Position numbers and translations under genes: made by a program
Shown here: positions 29,903-63,100 of the stretch, piece after piece
Position numbering within the stretch: the stretch's first letter is position 1
Layout of the letters: every line of letters starts with the position of its first letter
Notes under the pieces: generated by a model
Database searches by the model: none
What the model was told of the DNA's origin: nothing
The model's input: the letters and a program-made list of their open reading frames with translations, nothing else
Source: an uncultured Acetatifactor sp.
GTDB taxonomy: Bacteria > Bacillota > Clostridia > Lachnospirales > Lachnospiraceae
Length of the DNA stretch: 64,000 bases
Assembly (NCBI GenBank): GCA_944384205.1
Contig: CALWSL010000003.1
Span: 147,279-211,278, forward strand
Direction: 5' to 3'

Positions 29903-29931
29903 TTGACGCGGTTTTGGGGTTATGATACAAT
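29903..29931 (+). promoter_or_regulatory. Promoter of the methyltransferase/HNH defence operon
   Basis: TTGACG (29903-29908), 17 bases, TACAAT (29926-29931), starting directly after the deacetylase stop. Confidence 0.8.
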
Positions 29932-29985: not shown

Positions 29986-31416
29986 ATGTCAAAACAGGAT
30001 AAAAATTGTCAGGTTCCTACTCCAATTAAGTATGTAGAACAGATGCTTGATTATGTTGGATACAAACACGATTTATGGGGACGCAAAGTATTGGAAAATT
30101 CCTGTGGAGAGGGTAATATACTTGTAGAAATTGTGAGAAGGTATATCGCTGATACTAAAAGGAATCGATATACTTCAGAAGAAATCGTCAAAGGATTGCA
30201 GACTGATATTGTAGCATACGAAGTGGATCGGAAAAAAATAGACATTTGTATAATGCGTTTGAATGATTTGCTTTCCTCGGAAAATTTACCGGAAGTCAGG
30301 TGGAATATAAAACATCAGGATTTTTTGAAAAGTGAAGAACAAAATGTAGAATTTATAATCGGTAATCCACCGTACATTACATACCATGATCTCTCGCAGG
30401 AAGAAAGGGAATTTCTGCAAAAGAAATTTGGGGTCTGTCAAAAAGGTAGATTTGATTATTGCTATGCTTTTATAGAAGCCAGTGTCAGGGCATTGGCAGA
30501 TAATGGAAAGATGATATACTTGATACCGTTTAGTATCTTTCGCAACCGGTTTGCAGCGGGATTAAGAGGCTTTCTCAGGAACTATATTACAAAGATTATT
30601 GATTATAGGAGTATCAATGTATTTCCGGGAATAACATGTTCCACATCATTAATTTTGTGTGAGAATGGAAGTGTTACAGGCAAAGTGGAATATGAAGATA
30701 TTTTGACACGGAATAAATTTATTGTGGAACGTTCTGAATTGAGCGAAGATGGACAAAAGTGGATTTTTCATAGAACTCTTTGCGGAAACAGGAGATTCGG
30801 CGATTATTTTAGTATTCATAATAGTGTGGCGACATTATGTAATAAAGCTTTTTTGTTTTTGACAGAAGAGGAAAAGGGTAAATATTATATTATTGACGGA
30901 GAGTCTGTTGAAAAGGAAGTAACGTTACCTGCGGTAAGTACTAAAAGTAGCAGAACGCTAAAAAATGGAGGAAGAGAAACCAAAATAATTTTTCCATATA
31001 AAATGGTGGATGGAAAAGTTGTTCATTATTCGGAAGAGGAATTTAGAAATCAATATCCGTGCGCATGGAATTATCTTTATCGATTTTATGGTGATTTAGG
31101 TAAAAGGAAAGCAGATGAAAAAGCAAAATGGTTTGAATATGGCAGAAGTCAGGCATTATCAGAGGTTTTCGGGAAGAAGCTTGTAATACCGATGGTTATA
31201 ACAAATTCTACGAAAACATATATTGCCGAAAAAAATGCAATTCCGTATGCGGGTTACTTTATTAAGGTAAATCCTGGTAGTGGTATGACTTTGCAGGATG
31301 CTAAGAAGGTGCTTGAGAGCGCCCAATTTTATCAGTATGTGAAAGAGGTTGGGACTCCCACAACAATTTCTTCTTACAGAGTTTCTGTACATGATATCAG
31401 TGAATTCCTGTTTTAG
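29986..31416 (+). CDS. N6-adenine DNA methyltransferase
   Basis: This 476-residue enzyme should methylate adenine in DNA using S-adenosylmethionine. The SAM-binding motif I is LENSCGEGN (about 36-44), and the catalytic motif IV is N127-P-P-Y130. The order is that of Eco57I/TaqI-like enzymes. The C-terminal half (about 230-476) probably holds the target recognition domain. No nuclease motif is present, so cleavage would have to come from the HNH protein three genes downstream. The gene is first in a tight four-gene operon and visibly AT-richer than the flanking chromosomal genes, consistent with transfer. The sequence specificity cannot be read. Confidence 0.9.
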   Translation: MSKQDKNCQVPTPIKYVEQMLDYVGYKHDLWGRKVLENSCGEGNILVEIVRRYIADTKRNRYTSEEIVKGLQTDIVAYEVDRKKIDICIMRLNDLLSSENLPEVRWNIKHQDFLKSEEQNVEFIIGNPPYITYHDLSQEEREFLQKKFGVCQKGRFDYCYAFIEASVRALADNGKMIYLIPFSIFRNRFAAGLRGFLRNYITKIIDYRSINVFPGITCSTSLILCENGSVTGKVEYEDILTRNKFIVERSELSEDGQKWIFHRTLCGNRRFGDYFSIHNSVATLCNKAFLFLTEEEKGKYYIIDGESVEKEVTLPAVSTKSSRTLKNGGRETKIIFPYKMVDGKVVHYSEEEFRNQYPCAWNYLYRFYGDLGKRKADEKAKWFEYGRSQALSEVFGKKLVIPMVITNSTKTYIAEKNAIPYAGYFIKVNPGSGMTLQDAKKVLESAQFYQYVKEVGTPTTISSYRVSVHDISEFLF

Positions 31417-31428
31417 CGAGGCGTATAA

Positions 31429-33858
31429 ATGGCAAAAAAACTTTATTTCAGGACTAATTCAAGGCATATTGGACAATTGGGCAGAGAACTTGTAACGGAT
31501 TTTGTTACTGCCTTGGTTGAGCTTGTAAAAAATTCTTATGACGCAGATGCAGGGAGTGTACAAATTAAGATTGAGAATGCCAATACGCCACACAGTCGGA
31601 TTACTGTTACAGACACAGGCAGTGGTATGACGCAGGAAGAATTTGAGAAGAAATGGATGGTTATCGGAACCAGTAATAAGGTCAGTGAACCATATACTGC
31701 AAATGGCAGGAAGCGGACGGGTAAAAAAGGAATCGGACGTTTTTCTGTTGAAAGACTTGCTGAAAGGGCAACCATTTATTCTTTTACGAATCAGGAGGAT
31801 TTTAAGGTATCCATCAATTGGAATCAGTATGAAGAGATTTCAGTAGACGCGCTGAGACAAAGAATTAAAATCCTGCGGGAAGGGAAGGATGTCTCCGCAG
31901 CGAAGTTTATTGCGAATCAAATAGAATACTATCTATTGTTATCTGATGTTGATGAACAGGATAGAAAGATTGTAGAAAAATATGCAGGGGTTGTAGATAA
32001 TTACGAGATTCTCTTTCGAAAAGATGTTTTATCTGATATCGAGCGACTGATACTTCCGATGTTGGAGAAAAAGGAAGGCACGGAATATGGAATCGAGGAA
32101 ATCGGTAATCCGCTGGAACGGATAGAAAACAGAAGCCGAGAAGAGAATTATAAACTTTTGGAAGAACTGAAAGGAAGAGAAACAAAGACAGAAAAAGACA
32201 ATAAGATAACCGGAATGGTATTGGTGTTGGAACGCTTGCGGGATAATTGGCGCCAGAAGGATATTGATAAGCTTCAGAAGGAACTGAGGCTTCTTGTTGC
32301 GCCTGAATTTATTGAGAAAGACCCTTTTTATATTGAACTTGTGGCAGACCAGTTCAAGATACCGGAAGAAATGTCAGTGAATGATATTTTGCACATGCGG
32401 TATGCCAAATTGGATGCAAGCATTACGGATGAAGGGAAAAGGTCTGTAATTTTCTATCAGGATAATGACGGAAATCATAAAGAAATTGCGGAGCAATATG
32501 AATTTCCGTTGCTTTGCGGGGATATTTCCTTTGAACTGTACTATTTCCTGAGAGATGCTGTACACATGAAGAATGAAACGTATGACTATCGTTTTGCATT
32601 GCGGATTCTTGATACATATTGCGGAATTAAGATTTACAGGGATAATTTCAGAGTAAAGCCATACGGTGAAACTGGTAATGACTGGCTGGAGTTGGATAAA
32701 GATAAGGTAAAAGATACGCATGGCTACAGGGTAGGTAATAATCAGACGGTTGGAGTAATCAAGATTTCTGATGCGACCAATCCGTTTTTGATTGATGCAA
32801 CAAACAGAGAAGGAATCATTGAAAATCAGGCATATGAGCAGTTAAAAGAGTTTGTACTCAGGTGTATTAATATTATTTCCGAAATAAGGCGGGAAGCATT
32901 TGAAAAATCTAAATCTGAGTTAGAGAAGGCGAAAGAAGCAAAGAAGAAACATCAGCAAAAGGAAGAAAAGTATAGGCGCGAGCAGGATAAACGCTTTCAG
33001 GATACAATGAATCTGATGAAAAGCGGAGCGTCTGTAAAGGTTGTGCAGAGTGCATTTGAACAATGGAAACAGGATGAAGAACGATATCAGAAAGAAAAAG
33101 AAGAGAAATATGAGCAGACGGAGAGTGCATATCAGAAAGTATTGGATTACCAGGAAAATGAATTGTCCATGTATAAAAATCTCGCTACATTGGGAATTTT
33201 GACAGGTAACTTTGGACATGAGACGCAGGATATTATTTCAAGGATTGGTAATAGTATTGCATATTTTGAGGCTTTAACGCCAACAATAGAAAACAGGCAT
33301 TTTGGAAATATCACAGGTATATTGAAGTCTGATTTTGCGCGGATAGAAGGTTATAGTTCTATGATTGTGGAGTTTCTGCGCAAGCATAAGAGAGATGTCA
33401 AGGAAAATCTGGATTTTGGAGTGGTTTTAAATGACATCTGTAATTTGTATATTGGTATGTTACAGGAGTTTCAGATTGATTTTTCCTGGAATTCGCAGGA
33501 TGAAATCTGTTTTACCATGCGGCAGATTGATTTGGAATCCATTATAATTAATATGATAACAAATGCTTTTGAACAATTAAAAGGAAAACCGCAGAGAGCT
33601 ATTCATATTCAATTCAGTCAGGATGATGAAAATATTTACCTGGAATTTGAAGACAGTGGAAATGGAGTACCGATAGACAAACGTGAAAAGATATTTCAGG
33701 CATTTGTGACTACAAAAGAGGACGGAATTGGTCTGGGACTTAATATTGTCATGGATATTGTGAAAAGCTATGGTGGAACAATAAAGATATTAGACTCAGA
33801 AAAATTAGGCGGTGCCAGGTTCCTGATTCATTTTGAGAAAAAGGAGACAGAACAATGA
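31429..33858 (+). CDS. Double GHKL ATPase: MORC/MutL-like N-domain fused to histidine-kinase-like C-domain
   Basis: This 809-residue soluble protein has two GHKL-fold ATPase domains. The first has E31 and N35 in LVELVKNSYDAD, D62 in DTGSGM, GTSNK (80-84) and the lid glycines in GKKGIGRFS (98-106), the pattern of MORC/MutL/Hsp90-type ATPases. A middle region of about 350 residues leads to a charged coiled coil (about 490-580). Then comes an H-box-like segment with H597 in NFGHETQD, and a second ATPase with N712 in MITNAFEQL, D742 in EDSGNG and GIGLGLN at 766. This is a histidine-kinase core. No membrane segment is present. It sits 12 bases behind the methyltransferase and overlaps the receiver gene by 4 bases. 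Confidence 0.85.
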   Translation: MAKKLYFRTNSRHIGQLGRELVTDFVTALVELVKNSYDADAGSVQIKIENANTPHSRITVTDTGSGMTQEEFEKKWMVIGTSNKVSEPYTANGRKRTGKKGIGRFSVERLAERATIYSFTNQEDFKVSINWNQYEEISVDALRQRIKILREGKDVSAAKFIANQIEYYLLLSDVDEQDRKIVEKYAGVVDNYEILFRKDVLSDIERLILPMLEKKEGTEYGIEEIGNPLERIENRSREENYKLLEELKGRETKTEKDNKITGMVLVLERLRDNWRQKDIDKLQKELRLLVAPEFIEKDPFYIELVADQFKIPEEMSVNDILHMRYAKLDASITDEGKRSVIFYQDNDGNHKEIAEQYEFPLLCGDISFELYYFLRDAVHMKNETYDYRFALRILDTYCGIKIYRDNFRVKPYGETGNDWLELDKDKVKDTHGYRVGNNQTVGVIKISDATNPFLIDATNREGIIENQAYEQLKEFVLRCINIISEIRREAFEKSKSELEKAKEAKKKHQQKEEKYRREQDKRFQDTMNLMKSGASVKVVQSAFEQWKQDEERYQKEKEEKYEQTESAYQKVLDYQENELSMYKNLATLGILTGNFGHETQDIISRIGNSIAYFEALTPTIENRHFGNITGILKSDFARIEGYSSMIVEFLRKHKRDVKENLDFGVVLNDICNLYIGMLQEFQIDFSWNSQDEICFTMRQIDLESIIINMITNAFEQLKGKPQRAIHIQFSQDDENIYLEFEDSGNGVPIDKREKIFQAFVTTKEDGIGLGLNIVMDIVKSYGGTIKILDSEKLGGARFLIHFEKKETEQ

Positions 33859-34358
33859 AAGAATTATTGGGATTATATATTGAAGATGATATAAGTAATG
33901 TGATGGTGCAGCAGGCGAGATTTGACTTGTTTGAAGGAATCAGTTTAAAAGGTTTGGAGACATTGCCAAGTAAGGTTGAAGAATTTTATCCAATTATTAT
34001 AAGAGAGCATATTGATTTTTTGATAATTGATCACGAGTTGGACAAACAAATGGTATCTTATAAAGGCAGTGACGCATTAAATGAAATCCGTAAACATGAT
34101 AGTACCATATATGCGATTTTGCTGACCAATTATCCCTTAGAGGATTATAAGGAGGAATTAGGGGCTTATGATTATCAACTCACAAAAAGTGAGATGAAGG
34201 AAGCCGGAAAAATCGAGGAGGTTGTTCAAAAGATAAAAAGAGCCTGTGAGTTAAGGCGTGATAATAAAATGTTGGCTGAAATGGAGCAGCGACAGAAGGA
34301 AAAAGAAGAATTGATTAATGAGTTAAAACGTTTTACAGAAGCCGGAAAGAAAGGGTAA
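33855..34358 (+). CDS. Stand-alone response-regulator receiver domain
   Basis: The 167-residue protein shows the receiver fold: acidic pair in YIEDD (D11/D12), candidate phospho-acceptor D59 in FLIIDHELD, switch threonine T91 in LLTNYP and conserved K111 in QLTKSEM. There is no DNA-binding or enzymatic output domain; residues 125-167 form a charged coiled coil. AGGAG precedes the start, and ATGA overlaps the kinase-like gene, so equal expression is expected. It is the natural phosphoryl partner of H597 in the upstream protein, and through its coiled coil it may contact another operon product. Phosphotransfer is inferred, not shown. Confidence 0.8.
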   Translation: MKELLGLYIEDDISNVMVQQARFDLFEGISLKGLETLPSKVEEFYPIIIREHIDFLIIDHELDKQMVSYKGSDALNEIRKHDSTIYAILLTNYPLEDYKEELGAYDYQLTKSEMKEAGKIEEVVQKIKRACELRRDNKMLAEMEQRQKEKEELINELKRFTEAGKKG

Positions 34359-34361
34359 TAG

Positions 34362-35273
34362 ATGGATTACAGAAGAAAGAAGCGCTGGGTAAGATACAAT
34401 CATATAAAATGCAAAATGTACTTACGCAACGATTTTCGTTTTGAATGTGCATATTGCCGGATGAGGGAACAGGACACTGGTGTTTTGGGGGAAGACAATT
34501 TTGAAAAAGATCATTTTGTTGCAAGGGCTTCGGGAGCAGACATTGATCTTGATTCCTATGATAATATGATTTATTCATGTTCAAAGTGTAATGGAAATAA
34601 GTCGAATAAAAGTGTTGAATTGCTGTTAAATCCATGTATAGACAATATTTATCTGGGAGCTAATCCACATGTTAAAAATCTGGGTAAGGATGGGCAATAT
34701 CAACTTATTGCCAATACAGTGGAAGGACAGCAATACATAGATGCTTTACAGCTAAATTCAAAATTTTACAGAGAGATGAGAGAAAAACAGGAGCAGGCGG
34801 ATAAAGGCAATAGCGAATTGGAAAAGATTATAAATGAAATTTCTAATCTGACGGATATGCCGGATGCTCTGATACAAAAATGTAAGCTGTTGGTGAGCAA
34901 TAACTTTTTGCTTCAGACAAGCAATCAACAGGATTCCGCGTTTAAATGTGGTCATTCAAGGGCGGGATGTGCATTTCAGGACGTGTTAGAAATTTTAGAG
35001 AAGCGGGCTGTTCCACACGAATTACTATTTGCAGACAAAGATATTGATATAAAAATTGAATATGATGGCAAGGAATACTTGTGCGAGATTGTATTGAACG
35101 ATAGTGCACAGAAGCCAGTCAGATGTATTCATATGAAGAAGGAACAGAGAGAAAGTTGGATAGCATCGGGCGCTAATTATGGAGTTTTATATTATTATAT
35201 GAAGACAGGAAGATTGGAATTCTATGGCGTTGATGAAGATAATGAGTTGATGGCTTGTTTGAATGATTGTTGA
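34362..35273 (+). CDS. HNH endonuclease with extra C-terminal domain
   Basis: The 303-residue protein starts 3 bases after the receiver gene. The N-terminal part is a zinc-finger HNH nuclease: C29-x2-C32 (CAYC), D50-H51 in FEKDHF, N68 and C73-x2-C76 followed by NGNKSNK. These are the zinc and metal/catalytic residues expected for DNA cleavage. A helical linker follows (about 130-190). The last 100 residues form an alpha/beta domain (DIDIKIEYDGKEYLCEIVLND ending GRLEFYGVDEDNE) that I do not recognise. It may be a recognition domain or a degenerate nuclease. It is the only obvious cleaving activity in the operon. Confidence 0.87.
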   Translation: MDYRRKKRWVRYNHIKCKMYLRNDFRFECAYCRMREQDTGVLGEDNFEKDHFVARASGADIDLDSYDNMIYSCSKCNGNKSNKSVELLLNPCIDNIYLGANPHVKNLGKDGQYQLIANTVEGQQYIDALQLNSKFYREMREKQEQADKGNSELEKIINEISNLTDMPDALIQKCKLLVSNNFLLQTSNQQDSAFKCGHSRAGCAFQDVLEILEKRAVPHELLFADKDIDIKIEYDGKEYLCEIVLNDSAQKPVRCIHMKKEQRESWIASGANYGVLYYYMKTGRLEFYGVDEDNELMACLNDC

Positions 35274-35285
35274 AATCAGTTAGAA

Positions 35286-35314
35286 TTGCAACTCAAATAT
35301 GACTTTGTTATAAT
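35286..35314 (+). promoter_or_regulatory. Wadjet operon promoter
   Basis: TTGCAA (35286-35291), 17 bases, TATAAT (35309-35314), with jetA starting about 50 bases later. Confidence 0.85.
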
Positions 35315-35366
35315 GTCAATAACAGTAATATAATCTTAAAAAAGCACAAAGCGAAAGAGTAAAGTT

Positions 35367-36746
35367 ATGTTTCACATACTGCCTGATAATTTCTTTGCGC
35401 CACTTGCAGCACCGGGAAAAATTGTATACTGGGAATGTATTTGCAAGCTGTTTACCGTAATGGACAATCAGCTTTCTTTTGGTGTGGAAAGAGAGGTTCT
35501 GGTGGATGAGCTGCAATACTATTTTGAACAGACAAACGCGGCGGATCTGACGGAAGAAGAATTGAAGGATACAGACAGCAGAGGAAAAGCGAATTGGATG
35601 CTGCGCAGGTTGGAATTTTACGGCTGGATAGAAGTGGAAACGGATAAAAGTTATGTCCAGCGAGTGAATTTTCAGGAATATGCGGTAAAAATCATCAAGA
35701 CGCTGCTGGAGATAGCGGAAGGGAAACAGATTGAATATCAGGGCTATATTTATACGATATACAGCTTAGTGAGGAGCCATACAGACAATCCCGGAGTGGT
35801 GCTTCTGCAGACCCTGGAAAATACAGATATGCTGATTACCGGATTGAAAAATCTGAATTCCAATATTAAACATTACATAGATGAATTGACGAAACACAAA
35901 ACGGTAGCTGAGATTATGAATGTGCTGTTTAACGATTACATTACCAATATTGTGGATAAGGCGTATCATAGATTGCTGACATCTGATAATGTATCAAAAT
36001 TCCGCCCTGAAATTATTGAGAGACTGGAAGGGAAAAGCAAAAATCATGGATATATCGAAAAAGCGGCGTCCGAAATCAGCGAGATGAAAGAAATTTCCGT
36101 GGAAGAAGCCAGAGAGCTGGTTTACCGTTATTTGCACGAAATTATTGAAGCCTTCCGGAATATGGATGATATTCTCATGGAAATCAATCAAAAGAATGCA
36201 CAGTATCAGAAGGCGGCAATCAACAGGGCAAAGTTTCTTTTGACCGGCAGTGAAGATGTGCGCGGGCAGATAAAAGAACTCCTGATAGGTTTGAATGAGA
36301 AAATCAACCGTGAGCAGATGGACCTGGGCGGCATTTACGAGATTGATTTTTTGAGCGGTCTGGTGCGTATTTACAGTGCTTCTTTTTTGGATGAAAACTC
36401 GTTTTATTCACCCAGTGAAGGAAGAAAGGAATTTCGCCCGGCGGCATTGGCGGGAAAAGAGCCGGACGAAGTGTTACGCCGGGAAAAGCTTCAGAAAATG
36501 ATGGAGAAAATGCAGCGGATATTAAGTCCTGAAAAGATTGACAGCTATGTGAAGGAACAGATGGGGGCGGGGAAAGAAATGCTGGCAACCAAATTCCCCT
36601 TAGAAACAATAGAGGACTTTGTGAAAATTATTTATGTAAGGTTATACGGGCAAAGAAAAAACATGAGTTATACTGTTGCGGTGCAGGAAGAGAAAGAGAA
36701 GAACGGCTTTGTTTTTCACGATTTTCTGATTCAGAGAAAGGGCTGA
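35367..36746 (+). CDS. jetA: Wadjet JetA, kleisin-like subunit (DUF5716 type)
   Basis: Wadjet is a plasmid-defence SMC complex in which JetA is the MukF-like kleisin bridging the motor heads. This 459-residue protein opens MFHILPDNFFAPLAAPGKIVY, which I recognise as the DUF5716 family. A winged-helix-like N-domain is followed by a long helical middle (about 150-320) and a C-terminal domain ending VFHDFLIQRKG. DUF5716-type JetA differs from the DUF3375 JetA of type I systems, so a type III-like variant is likely; I am less sure of the type than of the family. The ribosome site is weak. jetB starts 8 bases after the stop. Confidence 0.85.
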   Translation: MFHILPDNFFAPLAAPGKIVYWECICKLFTVMDNQLSFGVEREVLVDELQYYFEQTNAADLTEEELKDTDSRGKANWMLRRLEFYGWIEVETDKSYVQRVNFQEYAVKIIKTLLEIAEGKQIEYQGYIYTIYSLVRSHTDNPGVVLLQTLENTDMLITGLKNLNSNIKHYIDELTKHKTVAEIMNVLFNDYITNIVDKAYHRLLTSDNVSKFRPEIIERLEGKSKNHGYIEKAASEISEMKEISVEEARELVYRYLHEIIEAFRNMDDILMEINQKNAQYQKAAINRAKFLLTGSEDVRGQIKELLIGLNEKINREQMDLGGIYEIDFLSGLVRIYSASFLDENSFYSPSEGRKEFRPAALAGKEPDEVLRREKLQKMMEKMQRILSPEKIDSYVKEQMGAGKEMLATKFPLETIEDFVKIIYVRLYGQRKNMSYTVAVQEEKEKNGFVFHDFLIQRKG

Positions 36747-36754
36747 TTTGTGAC

Positions 36755-37369
36755 ATGGAATTATTGGAAGGAATGCTTCAAAGAGATAAAGATGAATTTA
36801 AAAGAATCTGTAATCGTTTGCTGAGTGTATGTTTTTTATGCAAGGGAAATGCCACAAACAAGTCCGATTATTATTTTGTACTAAAGTATCGGGAGAAATT
36901 TGCGGACTATCTTGGGATTCTGGGATACCGTCTTGACATAAATGAAGAATACGGCGTAATACAGTTGACGAATATGCAGAATTATAATCGCTTAAACCTG
37001 AAGTTGTATGAATCTATTATTTTATTGATTCTGCGGATATTGTTTGATGAGAAAAAGCGGGAGTTATCGGCGAGTGATGAGGTGATTGTCAATCTGGGAG
37101 ATATTCATGATAAGTTTTTAAGCTTGAAAATCCGGGAAAAGATGTTGGACAAGACAACACTGCGAAATGCGCTTAGCCTGTTCCGGCGTTTTCAACTGAT
37201 TGAGACTTTGGACAAGGATTTGAACAATGAAGAATCCCGCATACTGATTTTTGATTCCATTTTGATGGCAGTCAAAGTGGAGGATATCAAGCAGGCTTAT
37301 GAAAAGCTTGAGATTTACAGGAAAGGGGCAAGGAGTGATGAAGAAGCTGACGAGAATGAAGCTGGTTAA
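36755..37369 (+). CDS. jetB: Wadjet JetB, KITE-like subunit (DUF4194)
   Basis: This 204-residue MukE-like protein binds the kleisin and DNA in the Wadjet motor. It is mainly two winged-helix-like units: an early helical part with FVLKYREKFADYLGILGYRL and a beta-wing YGVIQLTN, then IILLILRILFDEKKRELS and the second unit up to RILIFDSILMAV. The last 20 residues (GARSDEEADENEAG) are acidic. It overlaps the start of jetC by 32 bases, which implies translational coupling. Confidence 0.87.
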   Translation: MELLEGMLQRDKDEFKRICNRLLSVCFLCKGNATNKSDYYFVLKYREKFADYLGILGYRLDINEEYGVIQLTNMQNYNRLNLKLYESIILLILRILFDEKKRELSASDEVIVNLGDIHDKFLSLKIREKMLDKTTLRNALSLFRRFQLIETLDKDLNNEESRILIFDSILMAVKVEDIKQAYEKLEIYRKGARSDEEADENEAG

Positions 37370-40300
37370 CTGGCATCGTTTTACAGATACGACCATAGAA
37401 TTTGGAAGCTCCACCCTGCTTTCCGGCGAAAACGGTGCAGGAAAATCCACACTGTTGGATGCAATACAGTTTGTGGTTACCTGCTCTACAAATTATTTCA
37501 ACAAAGCTGCCCATGAGAATGGAAAGAGAAAGCTGACAGGATACATTCGCTGTAAAACAGGAAGAGAAAACAAACCTTACGAAAGAACCGGGGAAATCAG
37601 TGCTCATGTGGCGTTGGAATTTTACGAGGAGAGTAAAAAGCAGTATTTTATAGTGGGTGCAGTCATTGATTCTGCTTCTGAAGGACAGGAAACAGTTGTG
37701 AGATATTTGATAGACAATGCGCGGCTTACGGATGACATGTTTTTTCAGGGGAATACACCCAGATCTATTACGCAATTTCGCAATGCGAATCCTAAGATTA
37801 AGCAATGGTGCAAGACGCAGGCGGATGCAAAGCGGGTAATGAAATCCCGTTTCGGCAGAATCGAGGACAAGTTTTTTTCATTAATACCGAAGGCAATGGC
37901 ATTTAAACCCATTGATGATATTAAGGATTTTGTCTATTCCTATGTTCTGGATGAAAAGGAGGTCAACATTGATATTTTGCGTGAAAATGTCAGGACCTAT
38001 CAGGAATTGGAAAAAACCTTAGAGAGTGTAAAAAAGAAAATAGACAAGCTGGAGAGAATCGAGCAATTTCACACTGAGGTCGTGGATGGTCTTAGGAAGG
38101 ATAAGATGTATGAGTTCTTTCTGGCACATGCAGAGGTTGATATCATAAAAGAAACGATTCAGAGTTTGGAAAATCAGATTCGGACAGATGCTTTTCGTTT
38201 GGAGGAGAGAGGAAAGGAACTGGCGGCTCTCACAGAGGAAAGAACTGAAAAGCAGGAGATAGAGACCTCTCTGCGTGTGGAATTAAAACAGAATAAGGAT
38301 TTTCTGGCGCTGGAAGAGCAGGAAAAGGAATTGCATCGTCTGGAGGAGGAAAAGAAAGAGCGGGAAACAGAAAAGAGGGATTTGCTGAAAAGTGTGAAAA
38401 GGGCGCTGGAACAGTGCTATAAATTGCTGGAAGTGAAGGATGTTGCTGAGTGTATCAAGGAGTATCAGATAAAGCTGGAGCGCATGGAGGCAGTCAGGGA
38501 TATTGCGGAATTAAAGCAACTGGTTCAGACTGTGATTACATACAAGAATCAAATGCACGAGAAAATACAGCGAAAGATGCTGGAGGTGCAACTGGAACAG
38601 CAGCGTCTGGCTCAGGAAAAGCAGGAACTGGAGCAGAAAATAGAAAAATTGAACAAAAAGAGACTGACATATTCGGATGCGGTAACTTTGGTAGTGGATC
38701 AGATAAGAGAGGAATTTGCCCGAATTGGCAGAAAACCGGAACCGAGAATATTGTGTGAGCTGTTGGAAATCAAAAATGAGGAGTGGCGCAATGCAGTAGA
38801 GGGTTATTTGAATACACAGCGTTTCTATATTCTTGTGGAACCGGAGCATTTTGATATTGCGCTTGGAATCTATGACCGCTTGAGGAAAGAGAGGAAAGCC
38901 TATGGAGTAGGTTTGATTAATGCCCGCAAGCTGGAAGCATATGATACGGCGCCGGAGGGGACGCTTGCCACACAGGTTACCTCATCCAATAAGTATGCAA
39001 GACAGTATATCAACATGATTCTTGGTAAAGTACAGATGTGTGAGAAATATGACCAGTTAAAAAATTATCCCATATCTATCACAAAGGAGTGTATGAGATA
39101 CCAGAATCATGTGGCGAGTGCCATTCATCCCGGTATTTTTGAAACGCCGTTTATCGGACAAAATGCGTTCCGGGTCCAGTTGACGCAGGCAGAGGCAAAG
39201 CGTAAACGCTTAAGGGAAGCTTTAGAGAATTGTGCTAAAAAACAGAAAAACCTGGAATTTGTGCTGGAGCCCCTCACTACAGAGCATGATGTGGATATTA
39301 AGTACAGACTGGATGTACTGTCTTCCATAAGAACTTTACAGGATGCAATACAAAAATGTAAGACGAATATTGATACCCTGAAGAAAAATGCCACCATGAT
39401 ACAGAAGCAGATTCAACTGAGTACGTTGGAGGAGCTGATTAAGGAACTTGAGGGAAAAATCAACAGCATAAACAAAGAGATGGGAAAACTGGAGGAGAAA
39501 ATCCGTTCCACAAAGGAGCAGCAGGAAAATGCCAGAGGCAGCCAGATAGAACAACAGTCTTTGCTTGCCAGACTGGCAGAGGAAGCAGGCGATTCTCTTC
39601 CTGCATGGAAGCAGGAATATGAAAAGCAGACGACTCAGAAGATGTTTACACAGTTTCGGGATAATTTTGCAAGAAGAAGGAAAGCAAACGAGACTACTAC
39701 AAATGCGGCTAAAGATAAAATGACAAATGCCATGATTCAGTATAAAACGGAGCATGATTTCGGTGCGGCGCCCAGCATGGAAGGGTACCCGGATTTTGCA
39801 GCGGTATATGACCGTCTCAAAAATTCGGAGCTTTTAAGCTATGAGGGCAAGGTACAGTCGGCAAGACAGGCGGCGGAGGAGGAATTCAGGGAGCAGTTTC
39901 TCGCAAAGCTTCAGGAAAACATGAAGCAGGCACAGAGTGAATTTAAGGAATTGAATAAGGCGTTGCAGGATATTGTTTTCAGCAATGAGAAGTATGAATT
40001 TTTGTATCTGCCCAGCAAGCGTTACCGCCAATATTATGAAATGATTATGGATGATTTTAATGCTATGCAGGGTGAGTCCATATTCAGCGGTATTTTCCAT
40101 GAAAATCATAAGGAAGTCATAGATGAATTGTTTGAAAAGCTGGCATTGGATAGTGAGAACAATGTGAAGGCATTGGATGAATTTACAGACTACCGGACTT
40201 ATATGGATTATGATATCCGCATTGTACACAGTGACAACAGCTATTCCTTCTATTCCAAGGTTTGCGAAGAAAAGAGCGGCGGCGAGACACAGACTCCTTT

Positions 40301-40577
40301 TTATGTGACGGTTGCAGCGTCCTTCGTGCAGCTGTACAGCAACAATATAGGCGGTGAAGCCATAGGGCTGGTTATGTTTGATGAGGCGTTTAACAATATG
40401 GATGATGAGAGAATCGGCGGGGTGTTGGAATTCCTAAGACGCCTTCCTCTTCAGATTATTATCGCGGCGCCTCCCGATAAGATACAGTATATCAGTCCTG
40501 CAGTGGAGGAGACGCTTCTGGTGATGACGGATGAAAAGGTGAGTTTTGCAGAGAGGTATTACAATGGCGCGATATGA
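37338..40577 (+). CDS. jetC: Wadjet JetC, SMC-like ATPase motor
   Basis: JetC is the SMC/MukB-like ATPase that extrudes DNA loops in Wadjet. The protein is 1079 residues from the ATG at 37338, which has AAGGAG two bases upstream; an in-frame ATG at 37356 lacks a ribosome site. Walker A is GENGAGKST with K36. Two long coiled-coil arms (about 210-420 and 620-860) flank a hinge region near residues 450-600. The ABC signature appears as KSGGETQTPFYV and Walker B as VMFDEAFNNMD with D1015-E1016. No signal of truncation is seen. The end overlaps jetD by 14 bases. Confidence 0.92.
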   Translation: MKKLTRMKLVNWHRFTDTTIEFGSSTLLSGENGAGKSTLLDAIQFVVTCSTNYFNKAAHENGKRKLTGYIRCKTGRENKPYERTGEISAHVALEFYEESKKQYFIVGAVIDSASEGQETVVRYLIDNARLTDDMFFQGNTPRSITQFRNANPKIKQWCKTQADAKRVMKSRFGRIEDKFFSLIPKAMAFKPIDDIKDFVYSYVLDEKEVNIDILRENVRTYQELEKTLESVKKKIDKLERIEQFHTEVVDGLRKDKMYEFFLAHAEVDIIKETIQSLENQIRTDAFRLEERGKELAALTEERTEKQEIETSLRVELKQNKDFLALEEQEKELHRLEEEKKERETEKRDLLKSVKRALEQCYKLLEVKDVAECIKEYQIKLERMEAVRDIAELKQLVQTVITYKNQMHEKIQRKMLEVQLEQQRLAQEKQELEQKIEKLNKKRLTYSDAVTLVVDQIREEFARIGRKPEPRILCELLEIKNEEWRNAVEGYLNTQRFYILVEPEHFDIALGIYDRLRKERKAYGVGLINARKLEAYDTAPEGTLATQVTSSNKYARQYINMILGKVQMCEKYDQLKNYPISITKECMRYQNHVASAIHPGIFETPFIGQNAFRVQLTQAEAKRKRLREALENCAKKQKNLEFVLEPLTTEHDVDIKYRLDVLSSIRTLQDAIQKCKTNIDTLKKNATMIQKQIQLSTLEELIKELEGKINSINKEMGKLEEKIRSTKEQQENARGSQIEQQSLLARLAEEAGDSLPAWKQEYEKQTTQKMFTQFRDNFARRRKANETTTNAAKDKMTNAMIQYKTEHDFGAAPSMEGYPDFAAVYDRLKNSELLSYEGKVQSARQAAEEEFREQFLAKLQENMKQAQSEFKELNKALQDIVFSNEKYEFLYLPSKRYRQYYEMIMDDFNAMQGESIFSGIFHENHKEVIDELFEKLALDSENNVKALDEFTDYRTYMDYDIRIVHSDNSYSFYSKVCEEKSGGETQTPFYVTVAASFVQLYSNNIGGEAIGLVMFDEAFNNMDDERIGGVLEFLRRLPLQIIIAAPPDKIQYISPAVEETLLVMTDEKVSFAERYYNGAI

Positions 40578-41775
40578 TAGAATTCTGTTGAATGCGCTGA
40601 TTGATTCCTATGAGAGAAGTCTGCTTTTTACAGGGGAAAACAAGGTAAATATAAGAATCTCTTTTCCCTTTACACAGAAGACATTGCCGGATTATTTTGA
40701 GGAGAGTTCATTAGCCTACGAGGAAATTCACGCCTGTGTGGAGGAATTGGAACACAGGGAGTTTATTTCCGTTGAATGGAAAAGCGGGAAAGCAGGTCAT
40801 ATTATTACCAGGATTTTTTTGAGAGAAGAAAAGCTTCAGGAGATATACGAATATCTGCACAGAACCTCCCGGTATCAATTGCAGGAGCAGGCAAAGATGC
40901 TGCTGAAACAGGCGGAGCAGGAATATGAGTCACCTGTCTGTGCGAAGTTTATTTTCTATTTGCGGGAGCGTTTGGAAGCAAATAAATCCGTCAGGGAATA
41001 CCTGGAGTTATCAGACTTAGAAGGAATGAAGCGGATAATCAGAACCATTTATTTAATAGAGAGGAATGAGCAGCCTTGTTATATCCGTGAATTCTCTATT
41101 CGCCATTTTTCGGATTCCAAGGTAGTTGAGGGAATGTTCGGCAATGTTACGAAAATTATGTACAATTTCGGTGACGGCTTCAAAGGTATGGAGCTTTCGG
41201 ATATTCTGGCGGAATATAATATTTATCACACACCAAACTATGTGTATTTCAAAGGGAATGTTGTTTTGAAGGTGGGCGAAAATTTATTGCCCATCGGTTC
41301 GATGCGGCAGGGAATCGGAGTGTCCGGAGAAGACCTCCCTAAGATACGCTTGCAGGATGCCCATAGGATTCAGAAGGTTATCACAATAGAAAATCTTACT
41401 ACCTTTTTCCGCTGGCAGGAGGAAAATAGCCTAATTCTCTATCTGGGAGGCTATCATAATTCTGTGAGACGTTCGCTGTTGAAAATGATTTATAAGCAGC
41501 TTCCCAATGTGGTTTATTATCATTTCGGAGACATTGATGTGGGCGGTTTTGAGATATATGAGGATTTATGCGCGAAAACCGGAATTCCCTTTCAATTGTA
41601 TCGGATGGACATAGACACGTTGGAAAAGTATGTGGAATTCGGAAGAAAACTCACAGAGAATGATAAAAAGCGTATTCAAAAAATTTTGGAAAAAGGTCAG
41701 GTTCCATACGGTCAGGTGCTTCAATATATGCTGACGAAGGATGTAAAGCTGGAGCAGGAGTGTGTGGAGATATAG
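40564..41775 (+). CDS. jetD: Wadjet JetD, Toprim nuclease subunit
   Basis: JetD cleaves small circular DNA captured by the JetABC motor. The start is the ATG at 40564, giving 403 residues; a TTG six codons earlier is less likely. The N-terminal half is an elongated winged-helix arm (DUF3322-like). The C-terminal half is a Topo VI-like Toprim domain (DUF2220) with the conserved glutamate in TIENLTTFF and the metal-binding aspartates in FGDIDVGGFEIY. All residues expected for an active nuclease are visible. It closes the Wadjet operon. Confidence 0.9.
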   Translation: MARYDRILLNALIDSYERSLLFTGENKVNIRISFPFTQKTLPDYFEESSLAYEEIHACVEELEHREFISVEWKSGKAGHIITRIFLREEKLQEIYEYLHRTSRYQLQEQAKMLLKQAEQEYESPVCAKFIFYLRERLEANKSVREYLELSDLEGMKRIIRTIYLIERNEQPCYIREFSIRHFSDSKVVEGMFGNVTKIMYNFGDGFKGMELSDILAEYNIYHTPNYVYFKGNVVLKVGENLLPIGSMRQGIGVSGEDLPKIRLQDAHRIQKVITIENLTTFFRWQEENSLILYLGGYHNSVRRSLLKMIYKQLPNVVYYHFGDIDVGGFEIYEDLCAKTGIPFQLYRMDIDTLEKYVEFGRKLTENDKKRIQKILEKGQVPYGQVLQYMLTKDVKLEQECVEI

Positions 41776-57112: not shown

Positions 57113-57156
57113 ATTATAAAAGTATGTATCAAATGTGCTAAATGAGGAGGTATATT

Positions 57157-60100
57157 ATGGCAAAGAAGCGTAAGGCTTGGTTGAAACGGCTATTGGGTGT
57201 AACACTTGCTGCGGCGCTCATTGTACAGCCAATGCCCACACAACTTGGTTCTGTCAGTGTAGTACATGCAGAAGAAGCAGAAATGACGGAACTGATTACG
57301 AACGGTGACTTTTCGGATATCGCGACGGACGGCAGCAGCGCGACAAACTGGGAGCTTCGTGCAGAGGGAACTACTACGGCAAAATTTGAGAGTGGAAAAG
57401 CTGTCTTTGAGATTCAGACAATGGGAGATGACTGGGCGAATTATCTGAAATATACGCCGGGTATTGATTTGGTAAGCGGACAGGAGTACGCTATTTCCTT
57501 TACGGTAAAATCTTCTGTTGCTCGTACCGTTCAGTTCGGTTTTGACGGAGGAAGAATAGGGATAACGACGCAGGCGTTGAATGCCGGGGAAGAAACACAG
57601 GTAAGCTATACCTTCACTGCTTCCCAGGACTATGCCGCAAATCCGTATATGTTTTATCTGGGAAATATTACCGGTGCAGATAATCCTACAGAAGCGCATA
57701 CGATTGAGATTTCCAATGTCAGCATCAAGACGTCAGGAAGTACGGGCAGCGGAAGCCAGGGCGGAGAAGAGACTCCTGCCGTTGTAAAACCTGCAGCACC
57801 TGTGGGCTTGGTAGCTGATTATTGGACAAACAGTGATGAAAACAATGGAAAAATCTGGGTTTCCTGGAGCGCGGATATTGGAGCCGGAGGAGCTCCTGAC
57901 AGTTGGACGATTTCCATTGATGGAAAAACAGTTGGAACAGTAACGACTGCGGCTGCTTGTTTCTTTGATAATACATATGCAGAAGGAACACACACTGTTA
58001 CCTTGAAAGCAACCAATACGGCAGGAAGCAGTACGGCGACAACCACCTTTACCCTTACGGAAGAACAGGCAGGCGGAACCGATGCACCGGGCAGCGACTA
58101 TGTTGCGCCTGTAGAGGGCAATCTTCTGACAAACGGTAACTTTGAAGAGGCGGACGGAGCGGGCTGGAGCATATATTCCACCACGAATCTGGATGTTTCC
58201 TTTGAGGCATATAAAGCCGTGCTTGCTATTAAAGCGGATGCGGCAGACTATTTCCATGCTCTTTACCAGCAGGTAAGCGTGGAAGCCGGTGCAACCTACA
58301 AAGTAAGCTTTGATGTGGAATCCACAGTGGCACGTTCTGTTGCTGCGGGGTTTGATCCGTCCCGCGACCATACAGAAGAAATTAAAGCGAATACCAAAAC
58401 GACAGTTTCTTATGAAGTGACGCCGAATGTAACGGGCACTACAAGCTTTTTCCTTTACATGGGAACAGGCGATAATTCCGGCATTGGCGCTCATACAGTA
58501 ACCATCAGCAACGTAAGTATCGTGAAAATAGCAGATGCTCCTTCCGGCGGCGGAGAAACCGGAGGTGAGACCGGCGATACCGGTGAAGCAGATACGGAGG
58601 ACGGCGACTATGTTGCACCTGTAGAGGGAAACCTTCTGACAAACGGTAACTTTGAGAATAAAAATGAAGGCTGGTCCGATTTCAGAGATGCTGCCAATGT
58701 TTATTATAATCAATATCGGACTGTATTTGAGATAAACGGTGAAGCAGCAGACTGGGGACAGAGTTTATATCAGGAAATTCAGTTGGAAGCCGGTTTAAAT
58801 TATCGAGTAACCTTTTATGTTGAAACATCGGTTGCAAGAACTGTTACGGTGGATATGAACGACAGGAACCCGCGTCAGTTTACTTCTGATGTGATTCCGG
58901 CAGGTGAAAAGACAAAAGTAACCTTCGATACAACAAATGTAAATGACGGAACAAACAAATTTTTCATTTACTTAGGTGGTGTTACAGGTTTAGGCAAGCA
59001 TAAGGTAGTAATCAGCGATGTAAGCGTTGTGGAGATTCCTTTAGAACTTCCCAACGATGAGAATGACGAGCCTTATACCGCAATCACCAGCATTGGCGAT
59101 TTAAACGCTGATGATGCAATCGCACTGCAGGACGGTAACTTTACCAATGGGCTGGGCAAATGGGAAACCTGGTGCGAAAACTGGATGCAGCAGTATAACG
59201 TGGTGCAGTATACGCCGATAGAAAATGGTATGCAGGTTTACATTACCAATGTCGGTGACGGAGAGGGTAATAAGCCCTATGATGTTCAGTTAAATCAGTA
59301 CATTGATTTAAAGTCAGGTTTGGAATATACCCTTTCCTTTGATGTAACCACAGAAAAAGCAAGAGCAATCAATGTGGTAATCAATGAGCTTGGAACCGGA
59401 GAATTTGTAAAAACCATCGGTCTGCAGAAAAATGAGACCAGACATGTTGTATTCCGAATCCCTGTGCAGTCGGAGGACGCCATGAACAAGCTGTTCTCCA
59501 TTCAGATGGGTAAAGTAACAGGAGATGTACTGGGGAACACCCTGACCTTTTCCAATATGAAGCTTGAAGTGAACGGCTATGAAGATTTGGCGGTCCTTAT
59601 CGATGACGGTGAATTTACGGAAGGTTTGGGCAGCTTTACGACAAATCATGCAGGAACTACCTCTTTTACTACCGATGGAAAGAGCGTTCAGGCTGATATT
59701 ACAACAGCTACAAATGCAGGCGATGATACGCTTACCAGAGGCGGACTTAATTTGGAAGCAGGCGTCACCTACGCGGTAAGCTTTGTTGCAGGTGCGGTTT
59801 CCGGAGACAGAACCATTACCGTACAGCTTCCGGATGGAACAAGCAGAGAAGTTGCGTTGACAGATGATGCGGCAGTGAAAACGATTGACTTTACTCCCGC
59901 AGCGAACGTTACAAACGGAAGTCTGGTATTCCAACTGGGCGGTGAAGCAGATACTATCTGTCTTGATACGGTTCGTCTGGACGTGAAAGGATTTGCGGAG
60001 GCGAAAGGATTAAATATTGCAAAACATGATATTACAAGACTTACCAAGAATGCCGCTCCTGTTATCAGTGAGCATGTGAATGCTGTTGCAGGCAATGCCA

Positions 60101-63100
60101 TTGCGCTTACTTTTACAGATGCTGACGGTGCATATACAGCAGCTATCCAGGAGGCAATCGACAAAGGGATGTCAGCCGTTTTAATCGACGGTGTTGCTGT
60201 GGATACCAACAAGTATACGGTAGAGCAGGGCAAAATTACCCTTGACAGTTCACTCTTTACGATTGATGACGGCAGTGACAGGAAGACTTTCTATATTCAG
60301 GTAAATGCCTACTGGTATGAACCTGCTGCTGCAATTCAGATTGTGTATGCGACGAAGCAGTGGGAGTCCACATGGGCGGATGAGTTTGAAGGTACAGAGC
60401 TGGATATGAATAACTGGTCTTATCAGAACGGTACCGGCGCAGAGTATGGTCTTGACGGCTGGGGCAACAACGAGCAGCAGTATTATACCGATGAAAACCT
60501 GAAGGTGGAAAACGGTGAGCTGGTGATTACCGCTACCGCTGATTCCAAGGGTGGAAAACCCTATAGCTCCGCAAGAATCTGGACAATGAATGACGATCAG
60601 GAGACGGCAAAGTTCTCTCAGACCTACGGACGTTTTGAAGCGAAAATGAAGCTGCCCGCAGGGGAAGGCTGTCAGGGATTATGGCCTGCATTCTGGCTCC
60701 TTCCTGTAGACAGTCCTTACGGCGGATGGCCCGTATCCGGTGAGATTGATATCATGGAGGCGAGAGGACGTCAGGCTGACAGAATTGACAGTACCCTGCA
60801 TTTTGGCAGAAATTATCCGAATGAGGCAACTGCCGGTTCCCACTATGGCGATGATGAAGGCGAGGAATTGGATATTACCGAATGGCATATCTATAGTGTA
60901 GACTGGACGCCCGAATATATGAGCTTCCAGGTTGACGGTATTGAGTTCTATCGTGTTGAAAACTGGTACTGTCAGGATGAGAGTGAACCTCAGCAGTATG
61001 CGTTCCCGGCGCCTTTTGATCAGGAATTTTATATCGTTCTGAATCTGGCTGTAGGCGGAATGTATGATAATTATTTGAACCCCTCCGATTCTGCGCTTCC
61101 CGCAGAGATGAAGGTGGATTATGTGCGTGTATATCAGTCCACTGACCCTGATGTGTCAAGTGACAGTTATATTGCTCCGGACCCTGAAATGGAGAAGGAT
61201 GAAAGCAGTACTTTAGTGATTGGTGAAAATCAGTTTATTGATCCGGAGTTTGAAAATGTACTTCATGTTACTACTGATGAAGAAAATGTAGTATATGACG
61301 GATGGAAATTGCTGACTCTTCCCGATTACGGCGGATCTGCTGAACTGGAAACGGTTGAGATTGACGGAGAAACCTTTGCCAAGATTAATATTAACAATGC
61401 GGGTACCGTGGATTATGCTATTCAGATGACACAGAATTTGTCCGTATATAAGGGACATTGGTACACCTTAAGCTTTGATGCCTGTGCCGATTCTGCAAGA
61501 AGTCTGATCAGCAAGATTGGTACGGACGGCTCCATTACCGGTAAATGGTCTACTTTCAATGCGATTACAACAAAGCTTGGTACAGAGGTGAAGCATTACG
61601 AGTATACCTTCCAGATGTTAAATGATACCGATGAAATCAGCCGTGTGGAACTGAACATGGGTGCAGACGGTACGGCAGCGATTTATCTTGCAAATATAGA
61701 GTTTAAGGAAGTGGAAGGGTATGTGATTAATCCCGACGTAACCAAAACTCCTCTGGATAACGGCAATCATATCTGGAATGGTGCGTTTGCGCTGGGAAAC
61801 ACTTCCAGAATGGCATATTGGCAGGTTTCCGATGCGGTAAGCGGCGTTGTCAGAAACGGAAATGAATACTACTTCCGTTCACAGAATACCACTGATTTGT
61901 ATCAGACCGGATTAGAATTGTTACAGTCTGATACTTACAAGCTGACCTTCGATGTGAAAGCGGATTCCGAACAGGAAATTACGGTAGTATTCTCTGACAG
62001 GGAAGGAAATAATACTTATTCCTCTCAGACGGTTTCAGCAGGAACTGCTGCAGAGGAAAAAGAAGTAACCTTTACCATGCCGGAAGGAGTTACCGATACG
62101 GATGGTGTTGTAACCTTTAAGCTGGGAAGCGGTGTAGAGCTTGATAATATTGTGCTGAAGAGAACTACCTACAACAATGTGGATTATACCGGATTAAACT
62201 GTTATCCCTTACCGAACGGTGACTTTGAAATGGGTGACTACGGATGGTCGACATGGCAGACTACTCTGGCCATTGTGGAAGAAAACGGCAACAAGATTGG
62301 GCGTGCAGGCGGTACTACCGCTGTAAATCGTTATGATGCGGTATTAAGCTATGGCGGTCTGCAATTTTACGGCGGATATGACTATGAGTTAACCTTTGAG
62401 GCAAAGGCAAGCGCAGAGGCGGAAGTCGATGTTGCATTGGAAACGGAGGACGGTACTTATACCAGACATTTTGATGAAACCATTTCCGTGGGAACAGATT
62501 GGGATACTTACACTTTTGACTTCAAATTGTCCGGTGACATGACGCTTGCGCTGAAATTCCTGACAGGCGCAGCAGCGGCAGAATATAACTTGGACCTTGA
62601 TAATATCGTGTTGAAAATGAAGGGTGCGCCGCTGGCGGGAGGAATCTTCATGCCTGACGACTATAATGTGCTCGGTGAGGATTTGGTAATTCCTCACAAT
62701 GGTTCAAGCGCATGGTGCGAGGCAGCGGAAGTGAAGCTGGATGGCGAAGTTCTGGACAGCAGTATGTATTCTCTTAAAGAGGGTCAGATTACTTTGGATA
62801 GTCTTCTGTTTACAGAGTCAAGAGAATATACGATAAGTGCAACCGCTGAAGGATATGCGGATTCAACGGCAATGACCTTTAAGATGTATCCTGCAAACGG
62901 TGACAGAATCTGCAATGGTGATTTCGTTGGCGGAGCTTCGGCATGGAAGCAGTATATTCACGGCAGCGACAGTGCAACCTTAGATTATGCCAAGGGGTAT
63001 GTTGACGGAAGATATCTCCACGCAGAAGGCGATGAGTATGGCAATCCTTCCGTACCCTGGTCCATTCAGGTAAATCAGGATGTGACAATTACGGAAGCGG

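Follow-up and report, generated by a model that had tools for sequence, protein, structure and literature searches.

A conserved cassette of DNA methyltransferase, paraMORC-histidine kinase, receiver and HNH nuclease in an uncultured Acetatifactor sp., a probable defence locus

The four genes and their products

Four linked genes of an uncultured gut bacterium, Acetatifactor sp., lie at 29986–35273 on the (+) strand of the window, by which we mean the whole stretch of 64,000 nucleotides that was analysed (Table 1). The intergenic distances are 12, -4 and 3 bases, the genes for the kinase and the receiver overlapping by 4 bases, and the tight coupling described in the initial annotation was confirmed on verification of the open reading frames (ORFs) and their spacing. 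The identities that it had given to the products (a methyltransferase, a kinase with two ATPase domains, a receiver and an HNH protein) were borne out by Pfam and NCBIfam, and the residues E31, H597, D59 and H51 are located where it had placed them. It had also credited the operon with its own promoter; a consensus match is indeed found upstream of the first gene, but such matches are common in the whole stretch (29 observed vs 20.0 expected).

Table 1. Features of the cassette, in window coordinates
Feature	Coordinates	Strand	Basis
N6-adenine DNA methyltransferase, Eco57I/N6_Mtase type	29986..31416	+	Pfam, NPPY motif
paraMORC-histidine kinase	31429..33858	+	Pfam, profile matches, AlphaFold2 model, invariant residues
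Single-domain receiver, phospho-acceptor D59	33855..34358	+	NCBIfam NF052378, D59 conservation
PtuB-like HNH nuclease with C-terminal domain	34362..35273	+	Pfam, PADLOC, profiles, alignment, model/Foldseek
Possible cassette promoter, TTGACG-17-TACAAT with extended -10	29903..29931	+	Consensus match only

The first protein matches the Pfam families Eco57I (1.5e-19) and N6_Mtase (5.7e-7) and carries the catalytic motif NPPY at residue 127. Judging from its family, it is probably the self-marking enzyme for host DNA.

The second protein is composed of an N-terminal GHKL ATPase (about 11–131), an S5-like middle part (about 260–446), a helical stretch (467–616) carrying the phospho-acceptor H597 and a catalytic ATPase (about 659–803), with the Pfam domains HATPase_c_3 at residues 25–136 and HATPase_c at 699–804. 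In its AlphaFold2 model (mean pLDDT 80.8) the middle part is alpha/beta, and helices 467–531 and 536–616 run up to the phospho-histidine. Among solved structures, the N-terminal half gave profile matches to MutL, MORC3 and TRAP1, and the C-terminal half, in a profile search with the whole protein, to sensor kinases; kinase cores were also among the matches listed by Foldseek. Residues of about 139–250 form a helical insertion that is present in close relatives and absent from four distant kinases that were aligned.

The third protein belongs to the LM5578_1851 family of response regulators (NCBIfam NF052378), with 257.3 bits (4.5e-77) against a cut-off of 150 bits. Its match to Pfam Response_reg is weak and below the cut-off (0.0016); in fact, only 18 of the 72 proteins encoded directly after related kinases (locus L042 left out) are recognised as receivers by Pfam. 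The C-terminus is a short helical tail, and neither a known output domain nor a DNA-binding domain was found by Pfam and NCBIfam. The initial annotation held that all residues for phosphotransfer are present, and the alignments agree. An equivalent of D59 occurs in all 72 downstream proteins; all 77 aligned kinases have E31, N35, D62, H597, N708 and N712, together with the glycines of the two ATPase sites, and E598 and D742 are conserved in 66 and 72 of these, respectively. Because the residues of kinase and receiver remain invariant at large divergence, both ATPase sites and the His-Asp phosphotransfer are very probably in use.

The fourth protein matches Pfam HNH (2.5e-6), with zinc cysteines C29, C32, C73 and C76 and the catalytic residues H51 and N77; H51 is conserved in 17 of 17 aligned homologues. 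PtuB is its best PADLOC family (3e-11), and its profile matches rank from the HNH protein of retron Ec78 (2.8e-7) through PtuB (6.9e-7 to 1.2e-6) to PacI (7.7e-4). By these profiles the HNH protein resembles PtuB, which serves Septu and retrons as an effector, more than it does a type II restriction enzyme, and this ranking argues against a simple type II restriction-modification (R-M) system; effectors of the PtuB type need not act site-specifically. Thus, the reading of the two enzymes as a restriction-modification pair holds in so far as a methyltransferase, recognised by its sequence, and an intact HNH nuclease accompany each other, but the label is too simple for an HNH protein closest to PtuB.

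The nuclease model (mean pLDDT 74.4) consists of the HNH part and a further C-terminal alpha/beta domain, which the initial annotation had omitted from its description. In the Foldseek search the SPARDA complex and the Hjc resolvases ranked first (top E 1.9e-4), and no more than 2 matches reached 0.001 or lower. The C-terminal domain (about 200–301), on which we infer that this match falls, is probably of the restriction-endonuclease fold. Its residues D227, D229 and E242 are invariant in 7 close homologues, yet a lysine is absent from the usual catalytic place, so that the domain may bind rather than cut. Residues 200–301 form a domain in close relatives and are missing from shorter HNH homologues.

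Relatives and neighbourhood of the cassette

Receivers of NF052378 exceeded the cut-off in 7 of the 196 nearest genomes, own genome included, and sampling of the phylum (398 genomes) and of the family (397 genomes) turned up none besides that of the own genome; the receiver had no match in plasmids. A one-sequence receiver scan of genome contigs gave only 3 loci, all close, 2 of them on contigs of relatives already found. The nearest-genome search and the contig scan combined yielded a close set of 7 other loci, whose named hosts are uncultured Acetatifactor and Eisenbergiella. The order of methyltransferase, kinase, receiver and HNH nuclease recurs in all 7, one contig (L038) ending inside the nuclease gene. 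Since the gene set and its order are found again in these loci and in the distant bacteria described below, the association of the four genes exceeds chance, and the initial view of them as one unit stands.

The cassette is directly followed, after 93 bases, by a complete Wadjet set (JetABCD, 35367–41775), with promoter-like sites in the gap at 35286–35334 (consensus only). This neighbour had been taken as support for a defence role. The adjacency is real but was found in the own genome only among the 8 close loci, and we rejected it as an argument: no Jet genes were found in the available flanks of the 7 other loci, L038 not being assessable. In the window and in 3 other close loci the cassette is bordered by a deacetylase gene, and different genes are found elsewhere. 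Variation of the flanking genes and the failure to find Jet genes elsewhere suggest that the cassette is mobile and that Wadjet is a chance or local neighbour.

A wider survey of the flanks, covering 69 of 92 proteins from 11 of 12 chosen loci (the 2 proteins of L038 and some others excluded), gave 9 PADLOC families at E<=1e-15, one protein each. The control of 31 other window genes gave 16 families, look-alikes included (motor proteins as ZorAB; 4 mad3), and the comparison cannot tell defence genes from such look-alikes. The window proteins outside the cassette and Wadjet that match the ZorA/ZorB models (best 4.9e-62) may be ordinary MotA/MotB motor proteins. Farther along, an open frame at 57142–63999 encodes 2286 residues and continues past the window end; by eye it resembles a putative secreted glycoside hydrolase built of several modules, one part being laminarinase-like.

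For distant relatives, plasmids were searched by tblastn with the kinase, and viral contigs were scanned with its N-terminal half only. The cassette of Deinococcus gobiensis has the four genes ordered as in the window, and so does that of Klebsiella variicola, where the kinase gene is split; no near match of the latter was found in E. coli genomes, nor its receiver in other plasmids. Bacteroides finegoldii has the order kinase, receiver, HNH, methyltransferase; in Hymenobacter volaticus the methyltransferase, kinase and receiver are followed by a metallo-beta-lactamase-fold (MBL) protein, and Enterobacter mori carries a reduced cassette. A Burkholderia plasmid has been independently annotated with a methyltransferase, an ATP-binding protein, a response regulator and an MBL hydrolase.

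The viral-contig scan gave 70 loci, and dropping 3 identical kinases left 78 loci in all (70 - 3 viral, 5 plasmid and 6 close). The kinase ORF has at least 600 residues in 76 of these, and a same-strand gene follows within 150 bases in 73. We called the receiver short when the gene after the kinase encodes at most 240 residues, as it does in 27 of the 73 loci; in L042 that gene is the last piece of the kinase, and a receiver of 168 residues comes next. A nuclease follows the short receiver in 27 of 27 loci, 23 of them HNH and 4 of the metallo-beta-lactamase fold. These calls rest on the HNH motif in 21 cases, on motif and Pfam one gene further in L042, on alignment in L082 (catalytic histidine conserved, one zinc cysteine pair changed) and on HxDxDH in 4. 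An adjacent methyltransferase is present in 26 of the 27 loci, upstream in 19 and downstream in 7, the sequence of L100 stopping at the nuclease. All 26 carry NPP[YF] in one or more copies, and 25 belong to one similarity group, the last (L044) being annotated as Eco57I. In the viral subset, for whose collection neighbours played no part, the nuclease is present in 17 of 17 loci and the methyltransferase in 16 of 17. At 40% identity the kinases of the 27 loci form 11 groups, and the composition counts are those of related sequences rather than of independent events.

A longer receiver is found in the other 46 of the 73 loci, and none of the 46 has HNH/MBL motifs downstream; Pfam recognised 2 Vsr proteins and 1 HNH_2 protein in this set, assigned by eye to L065, L099 and L098. 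In several of these loci an adjacent methyltransferase was not seen in the locus sequence available. As long-receiver loci can go without them, a PtuB-like HNH or MBL enzyme and a methyltransferase are not required in every branch. Two longer receiver classes (L063–L124) are possibly further output types. In the class of about 340–410 residues the next gene often encodes about 220–260 residues with the pattern 'hPxfHxq...PR', mostly of no Pfam family; receivers of the class of about 440–465 residues have a 'CDxxq' motif near the end, and their gene is often the last. The long-receiver type, with either a C5 or an N6 methyltransferase, is seen in Campylobacter and on a second Hymenobacter plasmid, and a Stenotrophomonas plasmid has a C5 methyltransferase and a kinase, an annotated receiver being absent. 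A related kinase occurs on 41 Campylobacter plasmid records; in Campylobacter L125 it is accompanied by a 340-residue response regulator and, on the opposite strand, a C5 methyltransferase.

Relation to described systems

The initial annotation could name no defence system for the kinase/receiver pair, and PADLOC-DB 2.0.0 (2023) gives the same picture: the kinase has N-terminal partial matches only (REase_II 3.6e-10, TmtA 7.4e-7) and the receiver has none. The claim that the pair has no known counterpart, and with it the idea of a cassette wholly without precedent, had to be given up in view of two papers (PMC8011034, PMC2834635), as far as their cited passages go, and of the NCBIfam receiver model itself.

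Kinases of the paraMORC type with receivers in R-M neighbourhoods were described by Bellieny-Rabelo et al. 2021 (PMC8011034), where the cited text speculates that signalling cascades control R-M systems directly or indirectly. Their HEF_HK/Response_reg_2 set shares with the cassette the succession of HATPase_c_3, phospho-histidine region and HATPase_c, the adjacent receiver and the R-M context, and by this architecture (HATPase_c_3 + DHp + HATPase_c) the window cassette falls within the description. According to the same passages, C-5 cytosine methylases and Vsr are the foremost partners of that set, with HNH_2 also a neighbour, whereas the cassette has a methyltransferase of the N6-adenine type and a nuclease as a fixed fourth gene. 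At E<=10, the window kinase does not match PF19191 (HEF_HK) and the window receiver does not match PF19192 (Response_reg_2), and the latter is not among the families matched by the 72 related receivers at E<=0.01. PF19191 gave no match in the whole own genome, where the control was silent too. It matched 8 of the 77 related kinases weakly (best 3.7e-4), and among related viral records HEF_HK was found weakly in 7 of 50 (E<=0.001) and over the cut-off in 0 of 50, so that the two sets touch.

The second precedent is Listeria genomic island 1 (Gilmour et al. 2010, PMC2834635), with the sensor kinase LM5578_1852 and the response regulator LM5578_1851, from which NF052378, the model matched by the window receiver, takes its name. 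The kinase and receiver are flanked by LM5578_1850 and LM5578_1853, which the cited part of that paper lists as restriction-modification components, their function not being given there. LM5578_1850–1853 is probably the same operon type as the cassette, with 1850 and 1853 as the presumed nuclease and methyltransferase. Moreover, paraMORC ATPases had been predicted in R-M systems in 2008, some with HNH enzymes, the receiver being absent from the account as cited (PMC2292703), and HATPase and REC appear in a legend of predicted, unvalidated systems in the DefensePredictor paper (PMC13092281).

Control of a nuclease by a GHKL paraMORC module also has a described example in VcSduA (Shedu type I-D/paraMORC3), in which a GHKL ATPase of the paraMORC3 type is joined to a Shedu nuclease. 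This fusion protects against phages and requires its ATPase residue (PMC12137116). In the text cited, VcSduA differs from the cassette in being a single protein with a DUF4263 nuclease and no phosphorelay; the Pfam scan found no DUF4263 in the window kinase. Septu and retron PtuB effectors are likened to the cassette nuclease by their HNH sequence profile, yet the cassette has neither a PtuA ATPase nor a reverse transcriptase, and control would lie with the receiver and the kinase. PtuA models of PADLOC did not match the window kinase at E<=0.1. Detocs, the 'defensive two-component system', consists of three genes and, to our knowledge, has no methyltransferase and no paraMORC module. Its likeness to the cassette is defence via a kinase/receiver relay, and its effector is described as a receiver-linked, ATP-cleaving PNP in the cited text (PMC11249213), a domain that Pfam and NCBIfam did not find in the four cassette proteins.

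In the openly licensed literature that was searched, which takes in neither subscription journals nor preprints, no experiment on such a cassette was found. What is likely novel here is the fixed four-part composition, the interchangeable nucleases, the HNH closest to PtuB and the likely restriction-endonuclease-like C-terminal domain.

A proposed phosphorelay between detection and cleavage

The cassette is real and conserved, as its gene content and order, the retained residues and the exchange of nucleases show; it is probably defensive and may protect against phages or plasmids. We read it, with slightly better than even confidence, as a restriction-modification-like defence cassette in which the nuclease is under phosphorelay control. 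The methyltransferase would mark host DNA, and the paraMORC half of the kinase, presumably a MutL/MORC-like ATP-driven clamp, would close on DNA that is unmarked or otherwise abnormal. The long helix may then carry the clamp movement on to the kinase core, leading to phosphorylation of H597 within the kinase dimer, and the phosphate would move from H597 to the receiver residue D59, both of which are invariant. The phosphorylated receiver, having no output domain of its own, would license the separate HNH nuclease to cut invading DNA or another nucleic acid. The nuclease is taken as the output because of its constant place after short receivers and its exchange there for an unrelated enzyme of the metallo-beta-lactamase fold.

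The same invariant residues of kinase and receiver would also be required if the relay worked as a brake, the kinase of a healthy cell keeping the receiver phosphorylated and the nuclease inactive, until ATP was lost, the sensor damaged or DNA marking abolished and the nuclease set free, with an abortive or addiction-like outcome. PtuB-like effectors are under the control of a large ATPase partner, which counts in favour of this brake. Nevertheless, the sequence sets no sign of control, and the presence of the methyltransferase is just as compatible with a mark-and-sense scheme; we consider the brake, and likewise its release by these events, unlikely.

Less probable still is that kinase and receiver regulate the synthesis or activity of an ordinary R-M system in answer to cellular signals. 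This is the reading published for the related HEF_HK family, in the cited passages of PMC8011034, yet it sits poorly with a receiver lacking a DNA-binding domain, with a sensor half that resembles a MutL/MORC-like ATPase and not a known small-molecule sensor, and with an HNH of the PtuB-like kind. Finally, the kinase and receiver might be an ordinary two-component system or stress module that just happens to lie among restriction genes. This would account for the general two-component fold shared by the receiver and the kinase core, but it is very improbable given a composition that is constant over 11 kinase groups, kinase-receiver distances that are negative in 12 of 26 loci, and a background of HNH/MBL motifs of only 3 in 458 other ORFs of similar size from the loci, one of the 3 being the L042 cassette nuclease.

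Returning to the nuclease licensed by a phosphorelay, we tentatively extend it to a widespread immune type in its own right. There, a MORC-like clamp would read the methyl mark of the cell and pass its signal through a His-Asp relay to a plug-in receiver and on to interchangeable nucleases, giving a graded and reversible immunity. Long-receiver loci would then carry their output as a domain fused to the receiver or as another partner.

In the usual view, a restriction system is a pair of enzymes that owes its specificity to the recognition of DNA. If the phosphorelay reading is true, reversible signalling would gate the DNA-cutting response, with a phosphorelay sitting between detection and cleavage. 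The small receiver would offer a handle for testing, where one histidine and one aspartate should be decisive. The modular layout of methyltransferase, sensor kinase, receiver and exchangeable nuclease would also give a search rule for loci missed by current defence models, and the cassette would provide a concrete readout for the bacterial relatives of eukaryotic MORC proteins.
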